NCBI GenBank assembly: GCA_947467625.1
Contig: CANIJN010000007.1
Span: 1-53,092, forward strand
Source of the DNA: Opitutia bacterium
GTDB lineage: Bacteria > Verrucomicrobiota > Verrucomicrobiia > Opitutales > Opitutaceae
Direction of reading: 5' to 3'
DNA: 53,092 nt
The translations under genes were made by a program, and so were the position numbers. Under the pieces are notes generated by a model, which saw nothing but the letters and a program-made list of their open reading frames with translations, searched no databases and was not told the DNA's origin. Position 1 is the first letter of the stretch, and the number at the start of each line of letters is the position of its first letter. Of the stretch, positions 3,810-53,092 are shown piece by piece.

Positions 3810-5189
3810 TCAAAACTCGCGCTTCGTGATCAACCCCGGCTGCGGAATCGGATAACGTCCGTTGGCATCCGGTTGCAACGGTGCCGGCGAAGACGCCGTC
3901 AGGGTATCGAGCCCGGGCGCGAATTCATGGTCGCAGTTCAGCATCTCATCATACGTGACCGTGCGCCCGGTGTGCGCCGCCATGCGGCCCATCGACGTCA
4001 CGAGGCTCGCTTCCACCCCACGCTTCACCTCGTTGTAGGGCCGGTCGGCGCGGATCGCCGCCACGAGATCATCCCACTCGACTTGGTAGGGATTGGGCTC
4101 GGGCTGAGGGAAGGCCCAGAGCACATTCTCCGCCGCAAGGTTGTGTCCCTTGTAAATCCGCGCCTTCGACGGGATGTGGCCCTTCTCCGACACCACCGCG
4201 AGGCCCTTCGTGCCGTGCGCCCAACTGGAGTGTTCCGCTTGCGCTCCCGTCTGGCACCGGCCTTCCAGGAAAAGCTTCGCGCCATCGCCAAACGTATATT
4301 CCACCGAGTAGGCGTCGAAATTTTGATCGATGCTGTCGCCGCGATAGTGACGCCCGCCGTTGGCTTGCGCCTTCACCGGCCACGCGCCCTTCATCCACGA
4401 ACATTCGTCGATATTGTGAATGTAGAAATCGCTGAACGCCCCGCCGCTCGCCCACATAAAACTGTGGAATCGCTCAATCTGATACATCAGGTGGGTCTGG
4501 TTGGCCGGCTTCGGCGGCGACGCAAAGAAGCCGATCGGCCCGTGCAACCGGTAGGCGCGCATCATCAGTAAATCGCCGATCTGCCCTTGCTGGATACGAT
4601 CGGCCAACTCACCGCGGGCCTTGCAATGGCGGCACATCAGACCCACGCCGACTTTGAGGTTCTTCCGCGACGCTTCCTCGCCGAGGAGCAACATGCGCTT
4701 GCTCGTGGGCCCGTCGACCGTGACAGGTTTTTCCATGAACACGTGCAACCCTTTCGCAATCGCGTAGCCAAAATGCACCCACCGAAATGCCGGCGGCGTC
4801 GCGAGGATCACGACATCACCCGGCTTCAGGACATCCATCGCCGCCTTGTAGGAATCCAGGCCGATGAACCGCCGGTCTTCCGGCACGTCAATCAGGCTCG
4901 GTTGCGCGGCGAACTGTTTCGTCAAGCGCCCGTGCGCCGCCGCGAGGCGCGGATCGAACACATCCGCCATCGCGACAAGTTTGATGGGCCCGCTCTTAGT
5001 CGAGAGCGCCTGGCCGGCCGCTCCCGTGCCGCGACCGCCGCAGCCGACGAGCGCCACTCGAATCAGATCGCTGCCGGCCGCGTGCACGTAGGGTAACGTC
5101 ACCCCCGCGAGGGCGGACACCGTCGCCAAGCGACCCGTGTGTTTCAGGAATTCACGGCGGGACACCGCATCGGGGATTTGGGTATTCAT
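3810..5189 (-). CDS. Gfo/Idh/MocA family oxidoreductase with Tat signal
   Basis: A 459-residue NAD(P)-dependent oxidoreductase of the Gfo/Idh/MocA family, probably acting on a sugar or polyol in the periplasm. The start at 5189 puts a twin-arginine signal (VSRREFLKHTGRLATVSAL) at residues 9-27, as in glucose-fructose oxidoreductase-like proteins. The Rossmann fold begins with VALVGCGGRGTGAAG, and the family's active-site motif is MEKPVTVDG (lysine of E-K-P). A second half with a long alpha/beta domain contains FYIHNIDECSWMKG, matching the D-x-x-x-W region of secreted family members. It runs convergently with the PQQ gene and is followed upstream on the same strand by a second family member. 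The substrate cannot be told. An alternative upstream start at 5243 would put 18 residues ahead of the Tat signal and is less likely. Confidence 0.85.
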   Translation of the reverse strand: MNTQIPDAVSRREFLKHTGRLATVSALAGVTLPYVHAAGSDLIRVALVGCGGRGTGAAGQALSTKSGPIKLVAMADVFDPRLAAAHGRLTKQFAAQPSLIDVPEDRRFIGLDSYKAAMDVLKPGDVVILATPPAFRWVHFGYAIAKGLHVFMEKPVTVDGPTSKRMLLLGEEASRKNLKVGVGLMCRHCKARGELADRIQQGQIGDLLMMRAYRLHGPIGFFASPPKPANQTHLMYQIERFHSFMWASGGAFSDFYIHNIDECSWMKGAWPVKAQANGGRHYRGDSIDQNFDAYSVEYTFGDGAKLFLEGRCQTGAQAEHSSWAHGTKGLAVVSEKGHIPSKARIYKGHNLAAENVLWAFPQPEPNPYQVEWDDLVAAIRADRPYNEVKRGVEASLVTSMGRMAAHTGRTVTYDEMLNCDHEFAPGLDTLTASSPAPLQPDANGRYPIPQPGLITKREF

Positions 5190-38462: not shown

Positions 38463-41153
38463 TCACGGCTTGGCTTCCGGCACCCCGAACCGCGCCAGCT
38501 TCGACTTGGCCAGCGTCTCACCCCAGCCTAATTTTGATTTCAACAGCAACAGCCATGCTTCCTTGGCTTCCTCGAGCCGCTCTTGCTGCTCAAAGACCTC
38601 GCCTAAACGATAGAGTGTCCGCGCCATCCAGTAACGCCCTTTTGCCTGAAGCTCAGTCGCGCGTTTTCCATCCACGAGAAATGTATCCACAACGTCCTGC
38701 CACCAGACTTCCAGTGCCTTGGCCCGGTTCTCCCGGCGAACCCAAAGTTCTCCGAGATTGTAACCCGCCTCCACCCGCACATCCACAGGCGCGTCCACGC
38801 GATCGCGCAGGTGCTCGAACAACGTCCGCGCGCTATTAAAATGCGACGCATCACCCGACGACTGGGCATTGTGGCAGGCCGCCAACGCCAACTGCGCCAA
38901 AATTAAATTTTCCTGCGACGCGGGCTTGTTCAGCAAGTCTTCGTAGGCACGCTGCGCCGCCGGCAGATCGTTCAGGTTGCGCAACAAATCTCCCTGCTTC
39001 AGCCGCGCCGAGAAGACCAAGTCGCTCTGCGGATATTTTCTCACGAGATCTTCGATGAGTCGATTCGCCTCCTTGTAATTGGCGTCCTGGCCGCGGCGCT
39101 CCGCTTGCAACGCCGCTTGGTAAAGCGCGTAGGGCGCGAGTTCATTCTGAGGAAAATCATCCGCCAGCCGCGTCAGTAGCTTTTGGGCGTCGACGGTTTT
39201 TTCCTGCGCGGCCAAATGCCCAGCCTCGATCAAGTAGGACTGCACGGCCGCGTCCGACTTTTCAAACCGGGGATCTTCCCGCAGCTTCTTAAGCGTCTCC
39301 AGCGCCGCCGCCTCGCGGCCGAGAGCGAAGTTTGCCTCGGCCTTGGCCAAGGTGCCCGTGCTGGCAATTTCGTTGCGAAGTTTTTCGTCCAGCCCGGCGA
39401 GCAGTCCAGTCAGGTCGTCCGCCAGCTTCAGCGTACGCTCTGGTTCGCCGGCGTCCAACGCCAGCCGGGCCTGCAACCACGCCATCCGCGCGCGCAACTC
39501 CGCCGGCAATCCCGACCCCGTCTGCGCCGCGCCATCATCACGTTTTTCATCGAGCAATGCGTTCACTCGCGCATACGCCCGCTTGACGCCCGCCGCTCCC
39601 TGCACTTGCAACGCGCGGGCGAGGTTCCATTCCGCGCGCCAGCGGTTCTCCAAGTCAAATGCCGGATCACGTCCCAATTCGTCGAGCAACGGCTGCGCCG
39701 CATCCGTGGAGCCCGCCTTGATCTCCGATAATACCCGCTGAAACATCAAATCTCCGGCGCGCACGCCTTCCGGCCGCTCGCGCAACGCTGCTGCATAGGC
39801 GTCCGCCGCGTTTCGAAAATCACCGGCGTCACCCGCACTCCCCGCGCGAAACCAAGCCTCCGCCTCGAGCAATACCAACTCAGCGCGCGCCTGCGCTGCC
39901 CCCACCGCGCCGCCCGCCTGCGTCCCAGGCGCAAGTTCCAACCCCGCCTTCCGCGCGTTATCCGCCGCCGCGCGATAGCGCCGCTGTTCCCACGCCGACG
40001 CCGTCAACACCCCCAACGCGTGTACCCGAAACGGCGAACCCGGATACTCGTCCAAAAGCCGGCGGCCATCACGCTCTGCCGGTGCATAGTCCTTTTCTGC
40101 GAGGGCCACTTGCGCCCGAAACAACAACAAACTCTCCAGCACCGGATGTTTCGTCGGCGCATCAATCAGCCGGTTGAGTTCCGCCCGAAACACCCCTCGC
40201 TCCACCTGATCCTGCGAGGACCGCGCGAGCAATTGCAGCGCCACCCGCTGCCGCTCCGGGTCGCTCCCAGTTCCGATCAACTGGTTTAGCGCCAACCGCC
40301 CCACCCCGCCCGGTCCCTTGTCCCCAATGAGCCCCAGCACCAGACGGAACCGATCCGCTTGCGCACGCTCTTGCGGCAGGAGCGTCAGCATCACCTGCTG
40401 CAAAAAGCTCGTTGCCTCCGCCGTCCGGCCCGCCTGATGGAGATAGACCGCGAGGGTCTCGGCAAATCCGTAACCGACCGCTCTCCCTTTGTTGTTTTCG
40501 TAATTCTGCCGCGCCACTCGCTGCGCCGCCTCACTCGGATTGCCGACCCCGAGGCGCACCTGCTCGGCCGCCAGTTTAAACCGCGCCCGCGCCATTTCAT
40601 TCGTCGCGGCCTGTTCCGCCCGGACGTAGTAATCATTCGCTTTTGTCATGTCTTGGACGGGCGCCAAATCGAACAAGGCCCCCTGCAAGAACGACGCCCA
40701 CGCCCGGTCCGACGGCGACAATTCCTCCAGCTTCGTCGCCGCCAACTCCGCCCGCGCGACGTCCATTTTTCTCAACTGCATCGCCGCGAGCCCCGCGCGC
40801 AAATGCCACGCGGCCCCGCGCAAGCCCCCTCCTCCCCACAACACTTTTTCCGCTTCCGCCGGCTGTCCGTCATCGAGCAACACCGTGGCCAAAGCCAGGT
40901 TCAGCGCCGGGCGATCGGCTCCCGGCAACTCCAGCAACTGCCGGTAAATCCCGGCCGCCACCGAGGGGAAACCCAGCTCTTGCGCACGTTGCGCGGTGGC
41001 CAGCGTCACAGCGCTGGTCGCCGGCGAGACCGGAGTTCCCGCCGCCGAACCCGTCAGCGGTGCCCGTGCAGTGAGCGCGTCTTGCGCGCGCACCGCCACC
41101 AACAGCCCGAGGCAAGACGACACGAATAGAAGGATAAATTTCCTGAGTCTCAT
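38463..41153 (-). CDS. large exported tetratricopeptide-repeat protein
   Basis: An 896-residue protein with an N-terminal signal peptide (MRLRKFILLFVSSCLGLLVA, starting at 41153). The rest is a long array of degenerate TPR units, seen as repeated A-x-x-x-Y/A-x-x-A helix pairs and as patterns such as LARALQVQGAAGVKRAYARV and AQRAYEDLLNK. It is probably periplasmic or outer-membrane-facing and serves as a scaffold. Its place at the head of the exbB-exbD-tonB operon is common in Bacteroidetes and Verrucomicrobia and suggests that it helps the TonB complex or outer-membrane uptake. An upstream start at 41267 would add 38 residues without a signal and is rejected. Confidence 0.75.
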   Translation of the reverse strand: MRLRKFILLFVSSCLGLLVAVRAQDALTARAPLTGSAAGTPVSPATSAVTLATAQRAQELGFPSVAAGIYRQLLELPGADRPALNLALATVLLDDGQPAEAEKVLWGGGGLRGAAWHLRAGLAAMQLRKMDVARAELAATKLEELSPSDRAWASFLQGALFDLAPVQDMTKANDYYVRAEQAATNEMARARFKLAAEQVRLGVGNPSEAAQRVARQNYENNKGRAVGYGFAETLAVYLHQAGRTAEATSFLQQVMLTLLPQERAQADRFRLVLGLIGDKGPGGVGRLALNQLIGTGSDPERQRVALQLLARSSQDQVERGVFRAELNRLIDAPTKHPVLESLLLFRAQVALAEKDYAPAERDGRRLLDEYPGSPFRVHALGVLTASAWEQRRYRAAADNARKAGLELAPGTQAGGAVGAAQARAELVLLEAEAWFRAGSAGDAGDFRNAADAYAAALRERPEGVRAGDLMFQRVLSEIKAGSTDAAQPLLDELGRDPAFDLENRWRAEWNLARALQVQGAAGVKRAYARVNALLDEKRDDGAAQTGSGLPAELRARMAWLQARLALDAGEPERTLKLADDLTGLLAGLDEKLRNEIASTGTLAKAEANFALGREAAALETLKKLREDPRFEKSDAAVQSYLIEAGHLAAQEKTVDAQKLLTRLADDFPQNELAPYALYQAALQAERRGQDANYKEANRLIEDLVRKYPQSDLVFSARLKQGDLLRNLNDLPAAQRAYEDLLNKPASQENLILAQLALAACHNAQSSGDASHFNSARTLFEHLRDRVDAPVDVRVEAGYNLGELWVRRENRAKALEVWWQDVVDTFLVDGKRATELQAKGRYWMARTLYRLGEVFEQQERLEEAKEAWLLLLKSKLGWGETLAKSKLARFGVPEAKP

Positions 41154-41284
41154 GGATGGGCGCTGGTTCGCAGCCACGTTGGGTCGCACCGTGGAAACAA
41201 TCAACCGCCTTGTAACGAGTTCCGTCTCGCCCCTAAACGTTCCCCGCGCACAGTCCCCCGGTTTCAATCAATCCAATCGCTCCC

Positions 41285-41884
41285 ATGACCACCGCACTCA
41301 TTGCCCTCGGCGTCCTGCTTGCCATCGTTCTCGTGCTCGGCCTCTGGGTCGCCGGCATCTACAACAAACTCGTCGAACTCCGTAACCGTTTCAAAAACGC
41401 GTTCGCCCAAATCGACGTCCAACTGAAGCGTCGCTACGATCTCATCCCCAATCTCGTCGAGGTCGCCAAGGGCTACATGAAGCACGAGAGCAGCACACTC
41501 GAGGCCGTTATCAAAGCCCGCAATATCGCCCTCGCCGCGTCGCAGGGGGCCGCCGCCAATCCCGCGGACGCCAACGCCATGAAGGGCCTCATGTCCGCCG
41601 AGGCCGGGCTCGGCGGCGCTCTCAGCCGCCTCATGGTCGTCTCCGAACAGTATCCAGATCTCAAGGCCAACGCCAACATGCTCCAGCTCACCGAGGAGCT
41701 GACCTCGACGGAGAACAAAGTCTCCTTCGCCCGCCAAGCCTACAACGACAGCGTCCAGTTCTATAATACCGCTCGCGAAATTTTCCCGAACGTGATTTTC
41801 GCCGGCATGTTCGGCTTCCTCCCCGCCGAGCTCTTCAAGATCGACGACCCCTCCGAGCGCAACGCGCCGAAGGTGCAGTTTTAA
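41285..41884 (+). CDS. lemA: LemA family protein
   Basis: A 199-residue protein with one N-terminal membrane helix (ALIALGVLLAIVLVLGLWVAG) and then a four-helix bundle. Conserved segments are LVELRNRFKNAFAQIDVQLK and RYDLIPNLVEVAKGYMKHE, as in LemA proteins. The exact function is not settled; LemA proteins are often encoded beside a membrane M48 protease of the HtpX type, as here. It is divergent from the TPR operon. Confidence 0.92.
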   Translation: MTTALIALGVLLAIVLVLGLWVAGIYNKLVELRNRFKNAFAQIDVQLKRRYDLIPNLVEVAKGYMKHESSTLEAVIKARNIALAASQGAAANPADANAMKGLMSAEAGLGGALSRLMVVSEQYPDLKANANMLQLTEELTSTENKVSFARQAYNDSVQFYNTAREIFPNVIFAGMFGFLPAELFKIDDPSERNAPKVQF

Positions 41885-42218
41885 CCGAACAAAAATCCTC
41901 GAGGTCGGGCGCCGTGAAGCGTCTCTGCCCCGCGTTTAAACGCATGCTCGATGATAGGAAGCGCGAACGCTGCGGTTATCGTGATAGCGTGATTCCCAAC
42001 AGCCTTCAGTTCAGCCCGGCTGAGAAATCCAAACTCGATGCCGACTGAAGATTCCGGGACGATGAACACGCAAAGAAAAAAAACGCTCCGCTCGTTGGAC
42101 GGCCGGACGCCGATAGCGCCTCCTTACTCTCAGCTCCTCGTCTCCCGCTGCGGACACTCCCCCGCCTTAAGGTCTTCTTGCCTGCGCTTCGCGCCCGGAA
42201 TGTGACCCACTTCACCTG
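41885..42218. other. intergenic region without recognised gene
   Basis: About 334 nt between lemA and the M48 protease gene. No terminator or gene stands out. A 34-codon forward frame ending in a stop at about 42047 (MLDDRKRERCGYRDSVI at the start) reads like protein but is too short to support. Confidence 0.3.
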
Positions 42219-44210
42219 ATGGATTTCTTCGAAGCCCAAGCCCGCGCCAAAAAGAGCACTTCGCGTCTCGTCGCGCTCTTCGCACTCGCCGTCCTCGGGA
42301 CCGTGCTGGGCGGCTATGGCGCGGCCGTCTTCGCCCTTCGCCAGACTCACGACGACAACCCGCGCCGCTCGAGCCGCAGCGCTCAACGCTCGACCCTCAA
42401 CGCTCCACTCCCCAGCTGGTGGCAGCCCCAGCTCTTCCTCGGCGTCTCCTCCCTCACCCTCGCCGTCGTGGGCCTCGCCTCGCTCTATAAATGGAGCGAG
42501 TTCTCCGCCGGCGGCTCTGCCGTGGCTGAAAGCGTCGGCGGTCGCCGCGTCGATCCCCACACCACCGACACCATCGAACGCCGCCTCCTCAACGTCGTCG
42601 AAGAAATGGCCATCGCGTCTGGCGTCCCCGTGCCCGCCGTCTACATCATGGACGAGGAGCCCGCCATCAACGCATTCGCCGCCGGCCTCAACACCAGCGA
42701 CGCCGTCGTCGCCGTCACTCGCGGCACCCTCGAAAAACTCTCACGCGAAGAACTCCAGGGCGTCGTAGGCCACGAGTTCAGCCACATCCTCAATGGCGAC
42801 ATGCGCCTCAACATGCGCCTCACCGCGCTGGTATTCGGCATTCTGTTCCTCGGTCTCGCCGGCCGCGGCATCCTGTGGACCCTCCGCTTCCAAAGCCTCG
42901 GCGGCTCCCGCGACCGCGAGGGCAAGAATTCCGGCGGCATGCTCATCGCGATCGGGTTCGTCGGTCTCGCCCTCCTCATCCTCGGCTACGTGGGCTACTT
43001 CTTCGGCCGCCTCATTCAGGCCGCCGTGTCACGACAACGCGAATACCTCGCCGACGCCTCCGCCGTCCAATTCACGCGCAACCCCGGTGGCCTCAGCGGC
43101 GCATTGAAAAAAATCGGCGGCTTCACTCTTGGTTCCTCCATCCAGTCCAACCAGAGCGGTGCCATCGGCCACTTCTTTTTCGCCCAAGGCTTCCGCTCCC
43201 ACTTCGGCGGCCTCTGGGCCACCCACCCTCCCCTCGACGAACGCATCCGCGCCATCGATCCCCAATTCGACGGCCAGATGTCTGCCCCACCCGAAGTCGT
43301 CGACTTCGCCCGCGATTCTTTCGTCACCGCCGGCCTCGCCCCCGCGCAACCCTCGCGCACCTCCCACCTCGCCCACCCGCCCGCTACACCCGCCGCCGCC
43401 GCCATCGCCGCCGTCGGCACCCTCACATCCGACCAAATCTCCAACGCCCAACTCCTGCTCGACTCCACTCCGGCCCGCCTCCGCGCCGCCACCCAAACCC
43501 CCGCAGAAGCCCAAGTACTCCTCTACGGACTCCTCCTCGATGAGGATCCCGCGACGCGCGCCCGCCAACGCAGCCTCGTGGCGAGCCGCTCCGGGGGCGA
43601 CGCCCTGCGCACCCTCGACGAGCTCACACCGTCCTTGGCCGCGCTCGGCCTCGCGCACAAACTCCCACTCCTGCAGCTCGCGCTCCCCGCCCTTCGCCAG
43701 CTCCCGCCCACCGCCCTGGACCCATTCCTCGCTACCCTCGACGAACTCATCCACGTCGACGGCCGCGTGACCGCCTTTGAGTTCGCGTTGCAAAAACTTC
43801 TCATCCGCACGCTCGCCCTCGGCCGCACGCCCGGCGATGCCGTCGTGGAGATCTATTCCTTCAACGCCGTCGTCGACGAAATTTCCATCGTGCTTTCCGC
43901 GATGGCTCACACCTCCGACAACCATGCCGTTGCCGCCGCCGAGGCCTTCGCCAGCGGTGCCGCCCACATCACACTCATCGCCCACCAGCTCACGCTGCGT
44001 GACCCCATCGACTGCGACGTGGGCCCGCTCGACCCTGCCCTCGACACACTCGCCACCGCGAGCCTCGCCATCCGCCAACGTACGATTTTCGCCTGCGCTC
44101 ACATCGCCGGGGCCGATGGCCAAATCCTCATCGCCGAAGCCGAACTCCTCCGCGCCATCGCCGCGTCCCTCGACGTGCCGATGCCCCCTCTTATCATCGC
44201 CCCGAGGTAA
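42219..44210 (+). CDS. HtpX-like M48 membrane metalloprotease
   Basis: A 663-residue membrane protease. Two hydrophobic segments come early (residues about 20-45 and 65-90). The zinc site is H185-E-F-S-H189 (VVGHEFSHILNGDM), with the third ligand Glu275 in QREYLADASAVQF. Two more membrane segments lie between. Usual HtpX proteins have about 280-300 residues; here about 330 residues follow the protease domain, an Ala/Pro-rich linker and then helical segments (for example TALDPFLATLDELIHVDGRV and IAGADGQILIAEAELLRAI) that look like a TerB-type domain. HtpX cleaves damaged membrane proteins. The pairing with lemA is typical. Confidence 0.87.
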   Translation: MDFFEAQARAKKSTSRLVALFALAVLGTVLGGYGAAVFALRQTHDDNPRRSSRSAQRSTLNAPLPSWWQPQLFLGVSSLTLAVVGLASLYKWSEFSAGGSAVAESVGGRRVDPHTTDTIERRLLNVVEEMAIASGVPVPAVYIMDEEPAINAFAAGLNTSDAVVAVTRGTLEKLSREELQGVVGHEFSHILNGDMRLNMRLTALVFGILFLGLAGRGILWTLRFQSLGGSRDREGKNSGGMLIAIGFVGLALLILGYVGYFFGRLIQAAVSRQREYLADASAVQFTRNPGGLSGALKKIGGFTLGSSIQSNQSGAIGHFFFAQGFRSHFGGLWATHPPLDERIRAIDPQFDGQMSAPPEVVDFARDSFVTAGLAPAQPSRTSHLAHPPATPAAAAIAAVGTLTSDQISNAQLLLDSTPARLRAATQTPAEAQVLLYGLLLDEDPATRARQRSLVASRSGGDALRTLDELTPSLAALGLAHKLPLLQLALPALRQLPPTALDPFLATLDELIHVDGRVTAFEFALQKLLIRTLALGRTPGDAVVEIYSFNAVVDEISIVLSAMAHTSDNHAVAAAEAFASGAAHITLIAHQLTLRDPIDCDVGPLDPALDTLATASLAIRQRTIFACAHIAGADGQILIAEAELLRAIAASLDVPMPPLIIAPR

Positions 44211-44798
44211 TTCCGCGGCCTGCTTTACACGTCCTCTAGCTGACCGCTTAAAGCCGAGCGCGAGCACGACGGCCTCGCCGTAAACGCGCCCAACGTTTTC
44301 ACTCGACGGCACCTCCATAGTCCCCGCCAGAAGGTCTGGGCCCATTCTTCGTCACGCCCGAGTGGACCTACCAATCAAAAGACTCCGGCGAAGACCACCA
44401 TGCCTCCCTCGGCTACGCCCTCAGCCAAGACGGCTGCAGCGGCGCCCCTTTCGGCGTCGGCTGGCGTTCACCCAAACGCCGCTGGGAAGTCACCGTGCAA
44501 GCGACAATCTCTGCGACGAGCAATCCCTGATCGACGCCGGCAACACCCGAGGCTCCTGCGACATCCCCGACGTTTCGGCGTGCAAGCGACCGTGCGTGCG
44601 TAATCTCGGCAGCGATTTTTCCGCACGTCATTAAAATCAGAATACGAAACCACTTCGAACCGGTCATTCCTTTTCACCGTTGCCGTTGCCCGGTTAAACG
44701 CACCGTCGACCGCGTCGTGACGTCCAAGTCCGACCAGCGCCCGCGAGCGAACGACCGACATCGCCGGCCGAAAGCCCATCAGCCTGCCATCAGCAACC
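44211..44798. other. 588-nt region between convergent genes
   Basis: This gap separates the M48 protease gene from the convergent SDR gene. It contains the possible remnant at 44336-44530 and otherwise nothing that I can support. No clear terminator. Confidence 0.4.
44336..44530 (+). pseudogene. possible coding remnant
   Basis: A 65-codon open frame ends in a stop and reads as a natural C-terminus (WTYQSKDSGEDHHASLG, APFGVGWRSPKRRWEVTVQ). It has no good start codon or ribosome binding site and is flanked by stretches with no coding look. It may be the tail of a deleted gene. The family is not known. Confidence 0.25.
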
Positions 44799-45521
44799 CT
44801 AGAGATCACCCAGCTGCGGTCGCAGCACGATCTCTTCGACGACGGTATTTCGAGTCAGCCGATAAACATCCAAAAACGCCCGCGCCACATCCGCCGCCGG
44901 CATGATTCGCGCGGGCTTCACGCCGCTCGCGCTCCACGACGGCGACCACGTCGCGCCCGGGTGCACGCAACACACGCGCACCCCCTTGTCTTGGGTCTCC
45001 ACACGCAAAACTTTCGCCAGTCCAGTCACCCCAAACTTCGCCGCGCAATACGCCGCGCTGAGCGGATACGCCTCGAGCCCCGCGATCGAGCTCATGAAAA
45101 ACACGTCGCCGCTCTTTCGTTTCACCATCGCGGGCACGAACGCCCGCGTCACCAAAAACGCGCTCCGCAGATTCACCGCCACCATCCGGTCGAAATCAGC
45201 CACGCTGCTCTCCAGAAACGGCGCCATCGCAAAAGCCCCCGCATTATTGATCAACACGTCCACCGTCCCGAACCGCTTCGTCACCGCCGCGCTCAGCGTC
45301 GCGACCGCCGCTTCGTCGCTCACATCGCAACCGAAAACCGCCACTGCCGACGCCCCGCCGCTCGCCACTTTCCCGCACGCCCGCGCCACCGCCTGCAGCT
45401 TCGTTTCATTCCGCGCCACCAGCGCGAGCCGCACGCCACGCACTTCCTTCGCAAACACCTTGGCGATCGCCTCGCCAATTCCTTGCGACGCGCCGGTAAT
45501 CAGAACGACAGGTGTTTTCAT
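44799..45521 (-). CDS. short-chain dehydrogenase, sepiapterin reductase-like
   Basis: A 240-residue NAD(P)H-dependent reductase of the classical SDR family. The cofactor loop is TGASQGIG (residues 10-16), the NNAG motif is at 92-95, and the catalytic residues are Ser145, Tyr158 and Lys162. The C-terminal part (VRVCCVHPGATWSPSW and then VVEEIVLRPQLGDL) closely resembles what I recall of the Chlorobium tepidum sepiapterin reductase, which ends VVEEI-x-LRP-x-x-GD. It lies 39 nt after folE2 in one orientation with the pyruvoyl-tetrahydropterin synthase type gene, which fits a role in making tetrahydrobiopterin or a related pterin. A general 3-ketoacyl reductase remains possible. Confidence 0.78.
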   Translation of the reverse strand: MKTPVVLITGASQGIGEAIAKVFAKEVRGVRLALVARNETKLQAVARACGKVASGGASAVAVFGCDVSDEAAVATLSAAVTKRFGTVDVLINNAGAFAMAPFLESSVADFDRMVAVNLRSAFLVTRAFVPAMVKRKSGDVFFMSSIAGLEAYPLSAAYCAAKFGVTGLAKVLRVETQDKGVRVCCVHPGATWSPSWSASGVKPARIMPAADVARAFLDVYRLTRNTVVEEIVLRPQLGDL

Positions 45522-45560
45522 AAAGTTCTTCCGTGTGTCCGTGTGCCTGCTGCCGCGCCT

Positions 45561-46535
45561 TCAGCACACCAACGACCCAAACTCCATGAAGTCGGCCGTC
45601 ATCCCGCCGTTCACGCCTTTCACAATCACACTCACCGCATCGTGAGAGTGCAGCGACTCGAGGTGCGAGCACGCCACCTGAAAATCGGCGATGCGTTTGT
45701 CGCCCGCCAATTCGCGGTAAAGCAGCCGGGCCGCGTCCTCGACGAATTTGATATTGGCGCCGTTCAGCTCGGCGAACGCCTGCTCGTCTTCGCGTTTTAC
45801 CATCACCTGCGTCTCCGTCTTGAGCGCATTCGCGCAGTGTCGCTGCAAATCCTCGATCGTCACACTGCGACCGGCCGCGAGCTCCACGCGCACGCGCGCC
45901 TTGGAACGTTGGGCATGCGGCGTGGCATAAACGCCGCGCGTCTGCCGCGCGTGCTCCGCCAGCTCCGCGCTGCACGGACACGTGGACGAGTAGACAAAAT
46001 CAAACTCGATCACGCGGCGGAATTTCCCGTCGCCATCCATCGTGGCCTCGAATGCGACGCGATAGTACTGCCAGCCCACCAATCCGCTCCGCAGGCTGGG
46101 TTGCAGCATCGGATAGGAAAAAGCCAAACGGATGCGCGCGTTGAACGAATCGATCTTGCGTTGATACTTCAGCAACAACTTCCGCAGCACTTCGAACGTG
46201 AAGACCTCGTCCTCATGTTCATAAAACGAACGCATGATGCGCCCCATATTGATTCCCTTCAGGCCCGCCTGCAGCGACACCGTGCCCGTCACGCTCGTCT
46301 CCAGCGTGTGGAGTTTTCCGTTCGCCGTGCAGAATTTCAGCGGCAGTCGGAAATTCGCGCAGCCCACCTGCTGGATCGGCACGCGCGCGCCTTCCGCCGC
46401 ATTCACCGCCTCCATCATGTCGGGCAACGTGGCACGATAAGCCGCATCGGATTTAAACGTCGCGTCGTGGCGGCGGTTCACGAGCGGCGGCACACCGCCA
46501 GCGGTCTCGTGCAGATACATCGGTTTCTTCTTCAT
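45561..46535 (-). CDS. folE2: GTP cyclohydrolase I, type IB (FolE2)
   Basis: A 324-residue FolE2 enzyme that converts GTP to 7,8-dihydroneopterin triphosphate, the first step of folate and pterin synthesis. The T-fold is unlike that of FolE. Features in line with the family are the cysteine motif [18 protein letters not shown], the [12 protein letters not shown] segment and the histidine-rich [13 protein letters not shown] near the C-terminus, the metal-site region. The ATG at 46535 is chosen since it begins [15 protein letters not shown]; an upstream start at 46685 runs into the preceding gene. It lies 80 nt after the pterin synthase gene. Confidence 0.94.
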
Positions 46536-46615
46536 GTCGTTTTTCGTGGGAGCAAACGGCCCGCCGGTTGGTGACGATAACAACCGCGCGTGGCCAAGTT
46601 TAGCGGCTAAAAATC

Positions 46616-47113
46616 TTAGGCGGGGCGAGCCTCCGGGCCGAAAAATTCGGCGAAGTTCCGGGGCGTCTCGTACAGGCGCACGCAATGCAATTTCCCGGCC
46701 TTAATGTGCGGTTCGATTTCGTGCCAAAACGCGATCACGAGGTTTTCCGTCGACGGAATCACGTCCCGGAGAAAATCGACGTCCGTATTCAGATTCCGAT
46801 GGTCGCACTTGTCGACTACGGCCACGTGCAAAATCCGCTTCAACTCACCCAAATCCACGATGTAGCCGGTCACCGGATCGGGCTGTCCGCGCAGGGTCAC
46901 CTCGAGCACATAGTTATGTCCGTGCCAGTGCGGGTTGGTGCACAGGCCATATTGCCGCGTATTCCACGCTTGGCTCTTGGTCGGATTGTGCAGCCGGTGC
47001 GCCGAGTTGAAATGGACTTGCCGCGTGATGAACACGGTGCCGCTCAATGCGCGCGGTGCCTTCGCACGCGGAGAGCGTGCGGAGCGTTTTAGATTGGCGG
47101 ATTTTGACGGCAT
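46616..47113 (-). CDS. 6-pyruvoyl-tetrahydropterin synthase / QueD family
   Basis: A 165-residue T-fold protein acting on dihydroneopterin triphosphate. Zinc ligands are His39 (FNSAHRLH), His64 and His66 ([11 protein letters not shown]); the catalytic cysteine is Cys58. The Asp104-His105 pair (DHRNL) and the Glu149 near the end are kept. The order C-x-N-P-x-x-H-G-H-N-Y and the segment PSTENLV match the eukaryotic pyruvoyl-tetrahydropterin synthase better than E. coli QueD, where the motif is C-x-x-x-H-G-H-S and N-P-T-S-E. The start at 47113 gives a basic 25-residue lead; the longer frame to 47320 would run over the divergent gene. First gene of a three-gene operon with folE2 and the SDR. Confidence 0.82.
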
Positions 47114-47270
47114 GCAGGGCCAACCAGTAGCACAATAGTCTCCTCCGTCAATCGCCGTGGTCGTTCGGCGCGGGCTCGTGCGGTGGTTATGGGGTTGAGC
47201 CGCCTTTCCGATTGAATCAACCGGCGGGCCGCTTCTGACTCCGACTTTCGTTTCCGCCCCCGCGCCTCCT

Positions 47271-48119
47271 ATGCCTATCCGCAAAGCCCTCGTCACCGCC
47301 GCCAACCCCCGCCAGCGCACGCTCCCGCTCCAAACGCTGATTGATCAACGCGGCGAGACGAAATCCGCCCTGGAGATCGTCCTCGAGGAGGCCGCCGGTG
47401 CCGGCATCGAGGAATTCTGCGTCATCGTCTGTCCCGGTGACGAAACCGCCTACGCCGAGGCCTGCGGCGCCCTCCGCTCACGGGTGCGTTTCATCGCCCA
47501 ACCCACCGCGCGCGGCTACGGCCACGCCATCCTCTGCGGCCGCGACTTCGTGGGCGACCAACCGTTCCTTCACCTCGTCGGCGATCACCTCCACGTGGCC
47601 CACGGCACCACCAGTTGCGCCCGCCAACTCATCGCGGTCGCCAACACCGAAAACGCCTCCGTGTCCGCCGTGCAGCCCACGCGCGAGAGCCAACTCACCT
47701 CCTACGGTGCCATCGGTGGAAAACTCATCGGCGGCGCCCGCCCGCTCTACCAAATCGACACCGTCTTGGAGAAGCCGACGCCCACCGTCGCCGAACAACA
47801 CCTCATCGTCCCCGGTTTGCGCGCGGGATTCTACCTCTGCTTCTTCGGCCTCCACGTGCTCGGCCCCGACCTGTTCGCGATCCTCGACGAACACCACGCC
47901 GCTGCCCCCGACCAACCGCTCGGTCTCTCGCCAGCGCTCCACACGCTGGCCGCACGCCATCGTTATCTAGCATTTTCCATCGCCGGCCGCCGCTACGACA
48001 TCGGCGCACCCTATGGCCTGCTCCTCGCCCAGCTCGCCCTGTCGCTCTCCGGTCGCGATCGCGACCGAGTCCTCACCCAGCTCGTCGAACTCCTCGCCGT
48101 TCGCACCGACGAGTCCTGA
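47271..48119 (+). CDS. GalU-like nucleotidyltransferase with degraded signature
   Basis: A 282-residue protein with the overall arrangement of UTP-glucose-1-phosphate uridylyltransferase (GalU). The region VIVCPGDETAYAEA and ARGYGHAILCGRDFVGD fits GalU, and HLVGDHLHV fits the G-D-D metal region with His for the second Asp. The N-terminal nucleotide-binding motif is not the usual G-x-G-T-R-x-x-P-x-x-K: the aligned segment is AANPRQRTLPLQTLID, where the glycines are lost and the activating lysine is not clear. It may be an inactive or regulatory relative, or use another substrate. It reads in the same direction as, and 150 nt before, the kinase-pyrophosphorylase fusion. Confidence 0.7.
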   Translation: MPIRKALVTAANPRQRTLPLQTLIDQRGETKSALEIVLEEAAGAGIEEFCVIVCPGDETAYAEACGALRSRVRFIAQPTARGYGHAILCGRDFVGDQPFLHLVGDHLHVAHGTTSCARQLIAVANTENASVSAVQPTRESQLTSYGAIGGKLIGGARPLYQIDTVLEKPTPTVAEQHLIVPGLRAGFYLCFFGLHVLGPDLFAILDEHHAAAPDQPLGLSPALHTLAARHRYLAFSIAGRRYDIGAPYGLLLAQLALSLSGRDRDRVLTQLVELLAVRTDES

Positions 48120-48125
48120 ACTTCA

Positions 48126-48262
48126 TTTTTTCATCACGGATTTCGCGGATAAACACGGCTCAATTCAATCCACCAAGTGATGCCTGCATCGACGAGGATT
48201 GAATTCCTTTCTGTCTTCCCTGCCCTTCCGTGAACTCCGTGGTTAAACACTCCGTGCCTTCT
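48126..48262. repeat. intergenic repeat-like segment with CCGTG / ATTGAAT arms
   Basis: The gap between the GalU-like and fusion genes holds cacggatttcgcggataaac, then tcaattcaatcc and its inverted partner ggattgaattcc, then ccttccgtgaactccgtgg. These arms give it the look of a dispersed palindromic element. A related short text, ttccgtgtgtccgtgtgcct, occurs at about 45528. The in-frame GTG at 48230 lies inside the repeat and is thus doubtful as a start. Confidence 0.4.
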
Positions 48263-48271
48263 TTTCCGCCC

Positions 48272-51200
48272 ATGTCCTCGCCGCCACTCCGCGTCACCGA
48301 CCTCATCGCATCCGCCGATGCCGCGACGCGCGACACCGCCATCGACGCATGGTGCGCGGGCCGTTCCGTCGCCGAACTCCTCGCCGATTGCACCGAGCTC
48401 GACGCCTATCGACGCCGCGAAACGAACCTTTACCAGCGCGTCCGCGCACTGTTTTTCTTCACCGCCATCCACCGCTACCACCTCCCCGCGCGCGCCGATC
48501 TCCCGCGCCTCGGCCGCGTGCCCTATGCGGGTTTCCGACACCTGCTCGAACGCCGTTTCGAAGAGGCCATCACCGTCTTCTCCACCGCCCAATCCGCCCA
48601 CGGCCCGAGCGAAACCCTCTCCAGCGCCCTCGCCGCCGCGTACCACGCCCTCGCGTTTCAAACCCTCGCCGACCAAGTCCGCCGCACCGTCCGCTCCACC
48701 CGCGGCAACGCGTGGATGTTCCGCCTCGGCCACCCGCTCGACCAACCTCTGCGCGTCCGCCCCGAACTGATCGCGCGCGACGCCTCGGCCCCCGACGCAC
48801 CCTACCCGCTCTTGTGCGAGCGTACCCCCGTGCGGATGGATCTCACCCACTGCGGATGGTCCGATATTTTTTTCCTCGGCATGGATTTCCCGGAGGGCGC
48901 GCGCGTCCTCAACATCTCCGTCGACCTCGGCTTGCACGGCCGCGACGCCGCACCGCGTCCACCCGTCGAGGCGTTCTTCCGCGTCATCGACGAACCCGTT
49001 ATCCGCCTCGCCAGCGTTGACCTTGAAGCCACCGCCACGCTCACCACCCTCGACGACGTCTTTGATTTCGGCCGCGACTACCTTGGGCTGTTGAAAGCCG
49101 CCGTCATTGCCGCCGGCCTCGTCCCGCCCGGCATTGAACGTTCCGGCGCCAGCCTCGCCGAACTCCTCGCCACAATATTTGGCGCCGGTCGCGGTTTCGA
49201 ACTCGTCAGCAGCGTCAACCGCATCCCGAAGGGCTCCCGCCTCGCCGTTTCCACTAACCTCCTCGGCGCCCTCATCGGCGTCTGCATGCGCGCCACCGGC
49301 CAGATCCGTGCGCTCGCTGGCCCGAGCGACGAAACGGAACGTCGCATCGTCGCCGCCCGCGCCATTCTCGGCGAGTGGCTCGGCGGCTCCGGCGGCGGGT
49401 GGCAAGACTCCGGCGGACTCTGGCCCGGGATCAAACTCATCGAAGGCGCGCCCGCCGTGTACGGCGATCCCGAATACGGCATCAGCCGCGGTCGTCTCCT
49501 CCCGCGCCACACCCTCCTCGGCGTTGACCGCATCTCCGCGGCCGCCCGCCAAAAACTCTCGGACTCCCTCGTGCTCGTCCACGGCGGCATGGCCCAAAAC
49601 GTCGGTCCTATCCTCGAGATGGCCACCGAGAAATACCTCCTCCGCTGCGCACCCGAACTCACCGCGCGCCGCCGCGCCGTCGCCACGCTTGACGAGATCC
49701 TCGCCCTCCTGTCCGCGGGCGACATCCGCGGCCTCGGGCGCGCGCTCACCGAAAATTTCTTCGGGCCCCTCCAGACGATGATTCCGTGGGTGAGCAACCA
49801 CTACACCGAGCAACTTATCGCCCGCACCCGCGAGGCGTTCGGCGAGGATTTCTGGGGTTTCTGGATGCTCGGCGGCATGTCCGGCGGCGGCATGGGTTTT
49901 ATTTTCGCGCCGCATCGGCGCGTCGAGGCCCAGACCCGCCTGCTCGCAATCATGCTCGCCACGAAACACGAGCTCCAGGCCTCGCTCCCGTTCGCGATGG
50001 ATCCCGTCGTCTACGATTTCGCCATCAACGAACACGGCTCCGTCGCGGCGCTGCTCTCCGGCACCGACGCCCTCCTGCCCGTCGAGTTCTATCAACTCAC
50101 AGTCCCCGCTTACCTCCGCCGCGAAGCCCGCGACCTCACCGCCCGCGAACGCACCGACCTCGGCCAATTCACCCGCGCCGCCCGGACCGCACCCGCGTTC
50201 ACCGCGGCCCTCCCCTCCTTGCTCGACCGCCTGCTGCCCACGTCCACCGAAGCCGCGCGCGCGAACCACACCCTCGCCGCCCTGCTCGCGCAAAACGGCT
50301 TCGACCGCAAGCAACACGAGCACATCCGCGCCGATCTCCGCGCCGGCCGCATCGGCCTCGCGATGAACCGCCTCGCCCCGTCCACGCGCATCGACGACGT
50401 CGCCACCGCCGATCTCTTCAACCTGATTACGACCGACGGGAAGAGCCCGCGCGCGCACGATGGTTTGAAATCCGCCGGCGAAGCCTCCCTCGCTCGCGGC
50501 GAATGCGCTGTCATCACCTACGCCGCTGGCGTCGGCTCGCGTTGGACGCAAGGCGCCGGCGTCGTCAAGGCCCTCCACCCGTTCGCCAGGTTCGCCGGCC
50601 AACACCGCAGCTTCGCCGACGTCCACCTCGCCAAATCCCGCCACACCGCTGCGCTTTATGGGGCTGGCGTCCCTCACGTGTTCACCACGAGTCACCTCAC
50701 GCACGCGCCCATCGAGCACTCCCTCCGCACCCATTTTTCGTCAGCCCTCGACCACACCGTTTTCCTTTCCCCCGGCCGCTCCATCGGCCTCCGCCTCATT
50801 CCCGCCGTCCGCGACCTACTCTTCGCGTGGGAGGAAACCGCCCAACAAAAACTCGACGAACAAAAAGAGAAAATGCGCGACAGCGTCCGCACCGCGCTCA
50901 CCCATTGGGCGCGCACCGCCGGCGAGGGCACCGACTACACGGACAATCTTCCCGGCCAATGCCTGCATCCCGTCGGTCACTGGTTCGAAATTCCGAACCT
51001 CCTGAAAAACGGCACGCTCGCCCGCCTCCTCGCCGCCCGCCCGCAGCTCCGCACGCTCCTCGTCCATAATATTGATACGCTGGGCGCTACCCTCGATCCC
51101 ACGCTCGTTGGCTGGTTCCAAGCCTCGGGCGCCACCCTCGGCTGGGAAGTCATCCCCCGTCGGATCGAAGACCACGGCGGCGGCCTCGCCCGCGTCGACG

Positions 51201-51625
51201 GCCGCATACGCCTCATCGAAGGCCTCGCCCTCCCGCGCGAGTCCGACGAATTCAATCTTACCTACTACAACACGAACTCCTGCTGGATCGACATCGATCG
51301 CCTGCTCACCCTCTTCGGACTCACGCGCGCCGAACTCGCCGACTCCGTCCGCACCACTGCCGCCGTCCGCACCATGGCTGCCCGCGTCCCCACCTACGTT
51401 ACGCTCAAGGACGTCAAGAAACGCTGGGGCCACGGCCAGGAGGACGTCTATCCCGTTGCCCAATTCGAGAAACTTTGGGGCGACATGACCGGCCTCGCCG
51501 AGTGCGCCAACGTCTTCGCCGCCGTCCCCCGCGCCCGCGGCCAACAACTCAAAGACCAGGCCCAGCTCGACAGCTGGGCCCGCGACGGCTCCGCCGCCGG
51601 CATCGCCGCCCTCTGCCAGTGGTAG
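48272..51625 (+). CDS. bifunctional GHMP sugar kinase / UDP-sugar pyrophosphorylase
   Basis: A 1117-residue protein with two joined activities. Residues about 180-550 are a GHMP kinase fold: motif 1 TPVRMDLTHCGWSD (185-198), motif 2 NRIPKGSRLAVSTN (316-329), GGGWQDSGGLWPGIKLIEG (374-) as in FKP-type sugar kinases, and motif 3 LGGMSGGGMGF (533-543). Residues about 700-1117 are a UDPGP-type nucleotidyltransferase: YAAGVGSRWTQGAGVVKAL (750-768) with a basic residue after the glycine loop, then HRSFADVHLAKSR and later VHNIDTLGATLDP. It would phosphorylate a free sugar at C1 and make the UDP-sugar (or other NDP-sugar). The first 180 residues are helical and unassigned. The start at 48272 is used as the GTG at 48230 lies in repeat-like DNA. 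Confidence 0.82.
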   Translation: MSSPPLRVTDLIASADAATRDTAIDAWCAGRSVAELLADCTELDAYRRRETNLYQRVRALFFFTAIHRYHLPARADLPRLGRVPYAGFRHLLERRFEEAITVFSTAQSAHGPSETLSSALAAAYHALAFQTLADQVRRTVRSTRGNAWMFRLGHPLDQPLRVRPELIARDASAPDAPYPLLCERTPVRMDLTHCGWSDIFFLGMDFPEGARVLNISVDLGLHGRDAAPRPPVEAFFRVIDEPVIRLASVDLEATATLTTLDDVFDFGRDYLGLLKAAVIAAGLVPPGIERSGASLAELLATIFGAGRGFELVSSVNRIPKGSRLAVSTNLLGALIGVCMRATGQIRALAGPSDETERRIVAARAILGEWLGGSGGGWQDSGGLWPGIKLIEGAPAVYGDPEYGISRGRLLPRHTLLGVDRISAAARQKLSDSLVLVHGGMAQNVGPILEMATEKYLLRCAPELTARRRAVATLDEILALLSAGDIRGLGRALTENFFGPLQTMIPWVSNHYTEQLIARTREAFGEDFWGFWMLGGMSGGGMGFIFAPHRRVEAQTRLLAIMLATKHELQASLPFAMDPVVYDFAINEHGSVAALLSGTDALLPVEFYQLTVPAYLRREARDLTARERTDLGQFTRAARTAPAFTAALPSLLDRLLPTSTEAARANHTLAALLAQNGFDRKQHEHIRADLRAGRIGLAMNRLAPSTRIDDVATADLFNLITTDGKSPRAHDGLKSAGEASLARGECAVITYAAGVGSRWTQGAGVVKALHPFARFAGQHRSFADVHLAKSRHTAALYGAGVPHVFTTSHLTHAPIEHSLRTHFSSALDHTVFLSPGRSIGLRLIPAVRDLLFAWEETAQQKLDEQKEKMRDSVRTALTHWARTAGEGTDYTDNLPGQCLHPVGHWFEIPNLLKNGTLARLLAARPQLRTLLVHNIDTLGATLDPTLVGWFQASGATLGWEVIPRRIEDHGGGLARVDGRIRLIEGLALPRESDEFNLTYYNTNSCWIDIDRLLTLFGLTRAELADSVRTTAAVRTMAARVPTYVTLKDVKKRWGHGQEDVYPVAQFEKLWGDMTGLAECANVFAAVPRARGQQLKDQAQLDSWARDGSAAGIAALCQW

Positions 51626-51699
51626 GGACGCCGCTGCGAGCCGGCCGCCACTCGCGTCTACCTTCGGAATCCCGGCCGGCTCGGAGAGCCGTCCCTACC
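51621..51699. repeat. 79-nt composite palindrome over the stop of the fusion gene
   Basis: Outer arms ggtagggacg (51621-51630) and cgtccctacc (51690-51699) and inner arms gagccggccg (51638-51647) and cggccggctc (51673-51682) are perfect inverted repeats; the 7-nt spacers between are partly complementary. The TAG stop codon at 51623-51625 is part of the left arm. It could serve as a terminator or be a small palindromic mobile element. Confidence 0.6.
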
Positions 51700-51767
51700 C
51701 CCGCGACATGTGCGCGCTTGGCCGTTGCGACGTTTTAGTTTGGCCCTACCGCCCCGCGCCCCCTCCC

Positions 51768-51797
51768 TTCACGTTCACCTTCACCTTCACTTTCACT
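51768..51797 (+). repeat. hexanucleotide repeat TTCACN x5
   Basis: Five tandem hexamers (ttcacg, ttcacc, ttcacc, ttcact, ttcact) end 7 nt before the ATG of the metallo-beta-lactamase gene, and occupy the place where a Shine-Dalgarno site would be. No purine-rich SD is seen. Confidence 0.55.
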
Positions 51798-51804
51798 CGC
51801 ACCC

Positions 51805-52611
51805 ATGCCCATGCGTTTCCGCATCCTCGGTTCCGGTAGCTCGGGCAACGCCGCGTTGCTCATCAGCGAGGGCGCGCGCGTCCTCGTCGACGCCGGCTTC
51901 TCCGCGAAAAAACTCTCCGCCCTCCTCCTCGACGCCGGCGAATCCCTCGCGCAAATCGACGCCATCTTTCTCACCCACGAACATAACGACCACGCCGCCG
52001 GTATCGACGGCCTGAAAAAGCACCCGCACATTCAGGTCTTCGCCAATCCCGCCACCAGCCGCGCCGTCCAATCCAAACTCGACGCCGCCCACCGCCCCGC
52101 TTGGCAGCTCTTCGAAACCGGCTCACGCTTCCGCTACCGTGACCTCGAGGTCACCACCTTCGCCGTCCCGCACGACGCCCAGGAACCCGTCGGCTTCCGT
52201 TTCACGACCGGCTACGCCGACGACTTGCTTTCCCCGCGCCGTTCTCTCGCCTACGTCACCGACCTTGGCCACGCCCCGCAAAACGTCCGCGAACAACTCC
52301 GCGAGTGCGACGTCGTCATCGTCGAGTCCAACCACTGCTCCGACTTGCTCGCCGCCGACACCAACCGCCCTTGGTCGCTCAAGCAGCGCATCTCCGGTCG
52401 CCATGGCCACCTCTCCAACGAGGCCACGCGCGAGCTCCTTGCCGCCATCGCGAGCCCCCGCTGGCGCCGTGTCTGCCTCACGCACCTCTCGCGCGACTGC
52501 AATTCTCCCGCCGCCGTCGAACAGGCTCTCGCCGGCGTCCGCGCCACCCTCGCCGCCTGCGAATTCTCCATCGTCGCCCCCGGCGAAGGCACGCCGTTCT
52601 ACGAAGTCTAG
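51805..52611 (+). CDS. MBL-fold metallohydrolase (YycJ/WalJ-like)
   Basis: A 268-residue metallo-beta-lactamase-fold protein. The N-terminus MRFRILGSGSSGNAALLI is typical of the YycJ/WalJ-type hydrolases, and the metal site THEHNDHAAGI gives H58, H60, D62 and H63. Further metal ligands are likely in VTDLGHAP and in the C-terminal LTHLSRDCN. Related proteins act as 5'-exonucleases on DNA or RNA repair or processing. The start is 51805; an ATG at 51811 is also possible. It starts after a five-copy hexamer repeat. Confidence 0.88.
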   Translation: MPMRFRILGSGSSGNAALLISEGARVLVDAGFSAKKLSALLLDAGESLAQIDAIFLTHEHNDHAAGIDGLKKHPHIQVFANPATSRAVQSKLDAAHRPAWQLFETGSRFRYRDLEVTTFAVPHDAQEPVGFRFTTGYADDLLSPRRSLAYVTDLGHAPQNVREQLRECDVVIVESNHCSDLLAADTNRPWSLKQRISGRHGHLSNEATRELLAAIASPRWRRVCLTHLSRDCNSPAAVEQALAGVRATLAACEFSIVAPGEGTPFYEV

Positions 52612-52699
52612 GACCTCTGATTTACAGACGCCTCGATGCGGAGAGCGGCTTTCCGATGCTCATCGCTCAACCCGTAGCGCTCAGTGGAATGCTTGCGCG

Positions 52700-53092
52700 T
52701 CAATGCCCAGATCCCTTGCGCAAATTCCGCTGCCCAGCCATGCTAAACATCAGCACCGCCCCGACCACCGCCCACGGCACCATAAAATAAAAAAAGTAAG
52801 TGTAGCCGGTCTTATCCAGCAGCCGCCCCAGAATCTGCATCGCAAAGCCCGCGCCGAGGTATTGAAACGAATTGATACACCCCGAGGCAAACGCCGCCGC
52901 CTTCCGCCCACCGATGTCCATCGCCGCCGCCGGCCCGAGCAGTGAGTGCGTGGAGTTCGCCGTGAACGCCACCATGACAAACGCCACCGCGATGGCCGTC
53001 GCCCCGCTCACTCGTGACGCGATCAAAATCGTGACGATCTCGATACAATAAATCCACGCAGCCACCGGCGCACGCCGCCCGCCAAACAGGTG
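52700..53092 (-). CDS. MFS transporter, OPA type, 3' part (runs off the window)
   Basis: The last 130 residues of a larger membrane protein, continuing past the right edge. The first residues in view (FGGRRAPVAAWIYCIEI) are the central loop and helix following the D-x-x-FGGRRAPVA region of the GlpT/UhpT/OPA-type transporters. Further helices follow with STHSLLGPAAAMDIGGRKAA, in which the conserved GP-x-A-x-D region of the OPA group is seen. The protein ends with a basic tail (AGQRNLRKGSGH). Substrate is likely an organophosphate or sugar phosphate, but this part does not show it. Confidence 0.75.
   Translation of the reverse strand, partial: HLFGGRRAPVAAWIYCIEIVTILIASRVSGATAIAVAFVMVAFTANSTHSLLGPAAAMDIGGRKAAAFASGCINSFQYLGAGFAMQILGRLLDKTGYTYFFYFMVPWAVVGAVLMFSMAGQRNLRKGSGH

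Follow-up and report, generated by a model that had tools for sequence, protein, structure and literature searches.

The stretch of DNA analysed here, hereafter the window, comprises the 53,092 nucleotides of contig CANIJN010000007.1 from an Opitutia bacterium of the Opitutaceae (contig C7 of genome G000, which amounts to 5.59 Mb in 362 contigs and is 96% complete), and carries on its reverse strand three genes whose predicted activities make up a pathway to tetrahydrobiopterin (BH4). In gene order, these encode a 165-residue 6-pyruvoyltetrahydropterin synthase (PTPS) of the PTPS-II type (P0001; 46616-47113), a 324-residue FolE2-type GTP cyclohydrolase I (P0002; 45561-46535) and a 240-residue sepiapterin-reductase-like short-chain dehydrogenase/reductase (SDR; P0003; 44799-45521), separated by gaps of 80 and 39 nt. 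An earlier note on this DNA had described just such a same-strand set of a T-fold synthase, FolE2 and an SDR, and this is borne out by the open reading frames, by Pfam (P0001, PF01242, 7.1e-33; P0002, GCHY-1/FolE2, PF02649, 5.3e-68; P0003, adh_short, PF00106, 1.2e-53) and by NCBIfam, where P0002 is a FolE2 equivalog (287.5 bits against a cut-off of 215). P0002 is also the sole GTP cyclohydrolase I that was found at full length in G000. The divergent intergenic region of 157 nt upstream of the synthase gene (47114-47270) is, from its position, the presumed operon promoter; an Rfam scan of positions 40000-53092 returned no match, riboswitches included, at the gathering threshold. We conclude from the evidence below that the three genes very probably form one transcription unit making BH4 or its L-threo isomer.

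P0001 contains the motif CTNPHWHGH, that is C-x5-HGH, and the synthase pattern given in the earlier note (C-x-N-P-x-x-H-G-H) reads as it had been written. According to a 2016 survey (PMC5041015), C-x5-HGH marks PTPS-II, the BH4 subfamily, whereas QueD (PTPS-I) has C-x3-HGH and PTPS-III has ExxHGH; with its spacing of five residues, P0001 does not carry the QueD signature. When searched with phmmer against PDB chains, it matched rat PTPS at 118 bits, human PTPS at 111 and C. elegans PTPS at 97, as compared with 40.9 for Pseudomonas 2oba and about 34.5 for E. coli QueD. The alignment with rat PTPS is ungapped, has 51 of 131 residues identical and shows conservation of H39, H64, H66, C58, D104, H105 and E149, which we take to be the counterparts of the zinc histidines and of the catalytic Cys/Asp/His/Glu set of the rat enzyme. 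The AlphaFold2 model of P0001 (pLDDT 90.5), in which confidence along the N-terminal tail of ~20 residues ranges from low to moderate (block means of 52 and 71), is closest in fold to human (Z 20.9), rat (20.7) and C. elegans PTPS (19.9), with QueD at 17.8. C58 and the HGH are invariant across the 25 rows of synthase alignment A1, and C-x5-HGH is present in 37 of the 40 rows of alignment A3, the exceptions being L177, L181 and L183. In these three loci (synthase at 6001-6402 in L181 and L183, and at 6001-6414 in L177) the Cys is replaced, yet the remainder of the site is conserved and the linked reductase is still there. The synthase of an isolate, Opitutus sp. GAS368 (L108), is 99% identical to P0001.

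In a tree of 54 synthase rows, a split with support of 94/91 separates the operon synthases, together with animal PTPS, from the 11 QueD-type rows. E. coli QueD sits on a very long branch both in this tree and in a second one computed without three long rows. The 54-row tree also places animal PTPS among synthases labelled as Rhodothermaceae or Bacteroidetes (96/97) and not beside all bacterial PTPS-II, a position that the tree without the long rows does not resolve and that may possibly hint at the origin of the eukaryotic gene. The NCBIfam QueD equivalog model gives P0001 61.7 bits against a cut-off of 89.25, and since the QueD-type rows L062 (58.5) and L059 (80) likewise fall below it, this cut-off does not discriminate between the two types.

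For the reductase, the top match of P0003 among 649 PDB sequence matches is the sepiapterin reductase (SR) of Chlorobium tepidum (2bd0; 137 bits, runner-up 119), in an alignment that reaches the last residue of P0003, and the same structure is nearest in fold to the P0003 model (pLDDT 95.3; Z 35.7, runner-up 33.2). S145, Y158, K162 and W196 are invariant in all 63 operon SDRs, P0003 included, as is the Gly of a C-terminal Gly-Asp motif common to Chlorobium SR, whose Asp is present in 61 of the 63. The likeness to the Chlorobium enzyme, which the earlier note had proposed for the C-terminus, is upheld by both sequence and fold. That enzyme reportedly yields a threo product and is said to sandwich the pterin between Trp196 and Phe99.

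We also considered the arrangement in other genomes. Among the 57 genomes searched, G000 included, 28 carry a P0001-like synthase (in G005 it is split over two contigs), and the 27 carriers other than G000 provide 30 synthase loci. At all 30, FolE2 adjoins the PTPS-II synthase, and the SDR then follows at 23, a linkage that argues against a chance arrangement. A genome scan yielded at least 581 stretches encoding a relative of P0001; among the best 80 of these (the named loci, some of which are records common to the set of relatives, L108 being that of G001), FolE2 is present at 73 and the SDR at 65, and 8 of the 15 without the SDR have less than 2.4 kb of sequence left. At five named loci (L179, L181, L182, L183 and L185), labelled Rhodothermaceae, Bacteroidetes or Salinivenus, FolE2 is absent and FolE1, the other GTP cyclohydrolase I family, lies between synthase and SDR (by family models in L179, L181 and L185, and by eye in L182 and L183), while in L180 the SDR directly follows the synthase without FolE2. 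That FolE1 can take the place of FolE2 between the other two genes is the strongest indication of a pathway from GTP to BH4.

In such a pathway, FolE2 would convert GTP to dihydroneopterin triphosphate, the zinc-dependent PTPS-II would remove the triphosphate to give 6-pyruvoyltetrahydropterin, and the SDR would reduce the side-chain carbonyls with NADPH; the three genes would be co-transcribed. The product could have the L-threo configuration, given that the SDR resembles that of Chlorobium, an organism that contains L-threo-BH4, and it would serve as a redox cofactor of an enzyme still to be found. A pterin-4a-carbinolamine dehydratase (PCD) is encoded on contig C118 of G000 (4257-4526, within 4248-4541; PF01329, 1.5e-32) and matches in full what we take to be the PCD motif. 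PCD is present in 23 of the 28 carriers and in none of the 9 non-carriers within the family (p 1.6e-5 in a Fisher test; when counted by genus, 16 of 20 against 0 of 9). Its neighbours at 20 loci include putative uppS, cdsA and dxr genes, named without a family search and matched in 19, 18 and 17 of the 20; being uninformative about a substrate, this neighbourhood was dropped as a clue to the consumer of the pterin.

A number of observations weigh against this interpretation. The PTPS/QueD split falls to 70/68 once the three long rows are left out, which means that the synthase tree is not decisive by itself; the phylogenetic comparison that the earlier note had called for thus separates P0001 from QueD in the full tree and does so with much lower support in the reduced one. 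The catalytic Cys column holds other residues in 3 of 40 synthases (Ser in L177, Asp in L181 and L183), and two of the five FolE1-locus synthases, L181 and L183, are among them, which speaks against equal activity in those two. The SDR is not near the synthase at 7 of the relatives' 30 loci, of which L069, L074 and L095 are second copies and L089 and L095 lie at most 1.7 kb from a contig end. Phe99 of Chlorobium SR aligns to Met in P0003, and its column is mostly Gly, Pro, Met or Ala across the 63 operon SDRs, with Phe (61) or Tyr (2) two columns earlier. A small SDR tree, with E. coli FolM on a branch much longer than any other, does not place Chlorobium SR, including with respect to FabG and the other SDRs, and we dropped it as proof of SR identity. 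PCD is likewise encoded by 8 of 20 order members that belong to other families and have no synthase gene, so its link to the synthase is not universal. No aromatic amino acid hydroxylase (PF00351) was found in G000 or in its 8 congeners. Finally, queC, queE and tgt are present in G000 without a separate QueD, leaving the synthase with another plausible job, in queuosine synthesis. The earlier note's claim of a full pterin pathway is accordingly supported as regards the cyclohydrolase, the PTPS-II motif and the SR-like SDR, and is complicated by the missing hydroxylase and by queC and queE. That note had also held that a synthase grouping firmly with QueD, in a genome with queC/queE and no pterin-dependent enzyme, would refute the pathway; here queC and queE are present and no hydroxylase was found, and the grouping with QueD was not recovered.

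As for the consumer, PF00351 was detected in 2 of the 57 genomes, both of them carriers (2 of 28 against 0 of 29 non-carriers, p 0.24, not significant), and an aromatic amino acid hydroxylase is present in 11 of the 40 carrier genomes reached via the named loci, including 4 of the 5 labelled Rhodothermaceae or Bacteroidetes; these 40 overlap the set of relatives (at least G017 and G025), and the counts are not summed. An as yet undiscovered tetrahydropterin-dependent oxygenase, or some other redox use, is the simplest reading. The retention of PCD where no textbook consumer was found points to such a reaction. In cyanobacteria, BH4-type pterins have been linked to UV-A phototaxis and, more tentatively, to a cryptochrome (PMC3546692).

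The evidence on queuosine is best seen across genomes. In G000, queC and queE are adjacent on contig C47, QueC scoring above its NCBIfam cut-off and QueE having five QueE models as its top matches, at scores under their cut-offs; there are two TGT (tgt) matches, and no second PF01242/COG0720 protein besides P0001 was found in this genome. The earlier note had asked whether queE, queC and another queD lie elsewhere in the genome: the first two do, and a second synthase of the superfamily was not found. Strong queC is present in 27 of the 28 carriers, the exception being G030 (86% complete). In 14 of these 27 the COG0720 proteins are solely of PTPS-II type (two copies each in G001 and G035), and 13 have an additional COG0720 protein that is not PTPS-II. 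Among non-carriers, 15 of the 16 with strong queC have another COG0720 protein (none in G049, which is 82% complete), and no such protein is present in any of the 13 that lack strong queC. Among the 14 carriers with PTPS-II only, queE adjoins queC in 10; the contig stops at this point or soon after in G003 and G009, and the two genes are not adjacent in G015 and G028. The pattern extends to G028, a genome assembled as one contig, and suggests that PTPS-II takes over the QueD step where QueD is missing. E. coli QueD converts 6-pyruvoyltetrahydropterin to 6-carboxytetrahydropterin, which makes a double role of the synthase chemically plausible, and G000 offers a clean test case for a BH4-type PTPS feeding queuosine. 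We also observed a second QueD-like type with the motif KHxGxCRFPHGHS, distinct from the QueD type found beside queC in other genomes. It occurs in G024 (L059), G022 (L061), G011 (L098), G017 (L100), G014 (L101), G006 (L102), G012 (L103) and G031 (L104); in G024 and G022, which have queC, no other PF01242 protein was found.

Taken to its limit, the queuosine evidence would make the synthase a QueD and nothing else, producing 6-carboxytetrahydropterin from what FolE2 supplies, with the SDR serving some other purpose and no biopterin made. The que genes and lone PF01242 protein of G000, the 14 carriers with PTPS-II proteins only and the nearly universal presence of another PF01242 protein in strong-queC non-carriers (15 of 16) all favour such a reading, which is nevertheless improbable: the synthase has the BH4 motif and not that of QueD, 13 of 27 queC carriers keep an additional non-PTPS-II protein, the incomplete carrier G030 shows no strong queC, the SDR is nearest to sepiapterin reductase and stays linked even where the cyclohydrolase has been swapped, and the association with PCD is left unexplained. 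Queuosine alone explains neither the reductase nor the 13 genomes that keep both synthase types. A bolder proposal, which we consider less likely than not, is that one PTPS-II serves two pathways by dividing dihydroneopterin triphosphate between them: one share would go, through the linked reductase, to BH4 and the other to 6-carboxytetrahydropterin and on to queuosine, so that in 14 of the 57 genomes the enzyme would fill in for a QueD that is missing. The biopterin would be used by a tetrahydropterin-dependent enzyme still to be found and recycled by the carbinolamine dehydratase, in cells, G000 among them, that give no sign of folate synthesis or of an aromatic amino acid hydroxylase.

Other products have to be weighed as well. 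Because the substrate range of an SDR is hard to infer from sequence and the SDR tree is of little help, the enzyme might reduce a different carbonyl or the dihydropterin ring, and the operon might then make another reduced pterin, neopterin- or monapterin-like for example; a folM-folE-folX operon is on record in Pseudomonas (PMC9758184). Set against this are a synthase that is PTPS-II-like, the lack of any FolX found between the operon genes, the length of the FolM branch, and the Trp196 and C-terminal motif that P0003 has in common with Chlorobium SR, and we consider a product of this kind quite improbable. A folate operon with the synthase in place of FolB (the PTPS-III role) would fit a GTP cyclohydrolase I, which catalyses the first step of folate synthesis, and a G000 in which FolB was not found. 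FolK was not found either, both enzymes being missing from the search results for G000 and its 8 congeners (nine of nine genus genomes, G000-G008), 19 of the 28 carriers show neither, and P0001 does not have the ExxHGH motif. Folate is thus unlikely as the purpose of the operon, and we rejected this role, to which we give next to no chance. The nine genus genomes probably do without de novo folate synthesis and keep FolE2 nonetheless; as the only full-length cyclohydrolase found in G000, the operon FolE2 probably serves pterin and/or queuosine synthesis. As judged from sequence, the conserved operon most probably makes tetrahydrobiopterin in Opitutaceae, by a FolE2-based variant of the known pathway.

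Some carriers have a further copy of the first two genes. In G001 and G006, a second PTPS-II and FolE2 pair has as neighbours a photolyase-related protein (PF04244), a different kind of SDR, DUF2071 and fasciclin proteins and an FAD amine oxidase, as determined by family searches with four G001 proteins and the G006 oxidase. The pair is open in G006 (L074 8329-9865); the second FolE2 of G001 (L069 6966-7940) is interrupted by a stop in place of codon 275 out of 325, and that of G035 (L095) is split. On contig C72 of G000 (L210, C72:1-16000, about 4413-4757) the cluster is kept with only residues 212-324, the last third, of FolE2 left, possibly through an assembly error, and no PTPS-II match was found in it. 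In Pseudomonas mendocina, light induces both photolyase genes and the folM-folE-folX pterin operon (PMC9758184), and in view of the congeners' copy in a photolyase-related cluster a light-related role of the pterin is worth testing.

On the other side of the intergenic region lie two forward-strand genes, encoding P0004 (47271-48119), a GalU-like nucleotidyltransferase 157 nt from the operon, and P0005 (48230-51625), a protein of 1131 residues with a fucokinase-like kinase stretch fused to a UDPGP domain. Divergent nucleotide-sugar genes had been noted before and are indeed present. P0004 scores 88.8 bits against an NCBIfam GalU cut-off of 326.8, and its N-terminal glycine-rich motif appears altered by eye. 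Its gene is the divergent neighbour of the synthase gene at 10 of 27 relatives' loci and, among the best 80 named loci, at 21 of the 74 with room upstream; P0004 and P0005 are retained as neighbours in some members of the family. A Chlorobium pteridine glycosyltransferase is described in PMC5683033. Sequence searches of Pfam, NCBIfam and the PDB gave no match to a glycosyltransferase family for either P0004 or P0005 (the Chlorobium enzyme itself was not searched for genome-wide), and with this and so loose a linkage the earlier suggestion that the two genes supply a sugar for a glycosylated pterin finds no support.

Biopterin is called rare in bacteria in a 2026 review (PMC13259868), and the 2016 survey counted only ~50 COG0720 proteins with a predicted role in BH4 synthesis (PMC5041015). 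Set beside the at least 581 stretches in our genome scan, the best 80 of which were examined, this suggests that the BH4 pathway may well be commoner in bacteria than thought. Among the titles and abstract openings listed, none is on biopterin synthesis in Verrucomicrobiota, which does not prove absence. Compared with known systems, the window operon has the same three predicted activities as the BH4 pathway of Chlorobium tepidum and cyanobacteria, with FolE2 in place of FolE1, and its reductase is nearest to that of C. tepidum, in which L-threo-BH4 has been reported (PMC5683033). P0001 is like the mammalian PTPS (rat 1b66/1gtq, human 3i2b) in its metal and catalytic residues, sequence and fold, and differs in being bacterial, operon-encoded and extended by the N-terminal tail. 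With QueD (PTPS-I; E. coli 4ntk) it has a superfamily and fold in common, and may have to take over QueD's job in G000, whereas motif spacing and match scores set the two apart. The P. mendocina operon combines pterin genes with a photolyase regulon, much as the second PTPS-FolE2 copy of the congeners lies in a photolyase-related cluster; its FolX and FolM are, however, different enzymes, and the copy in the window lies outside that cluster.

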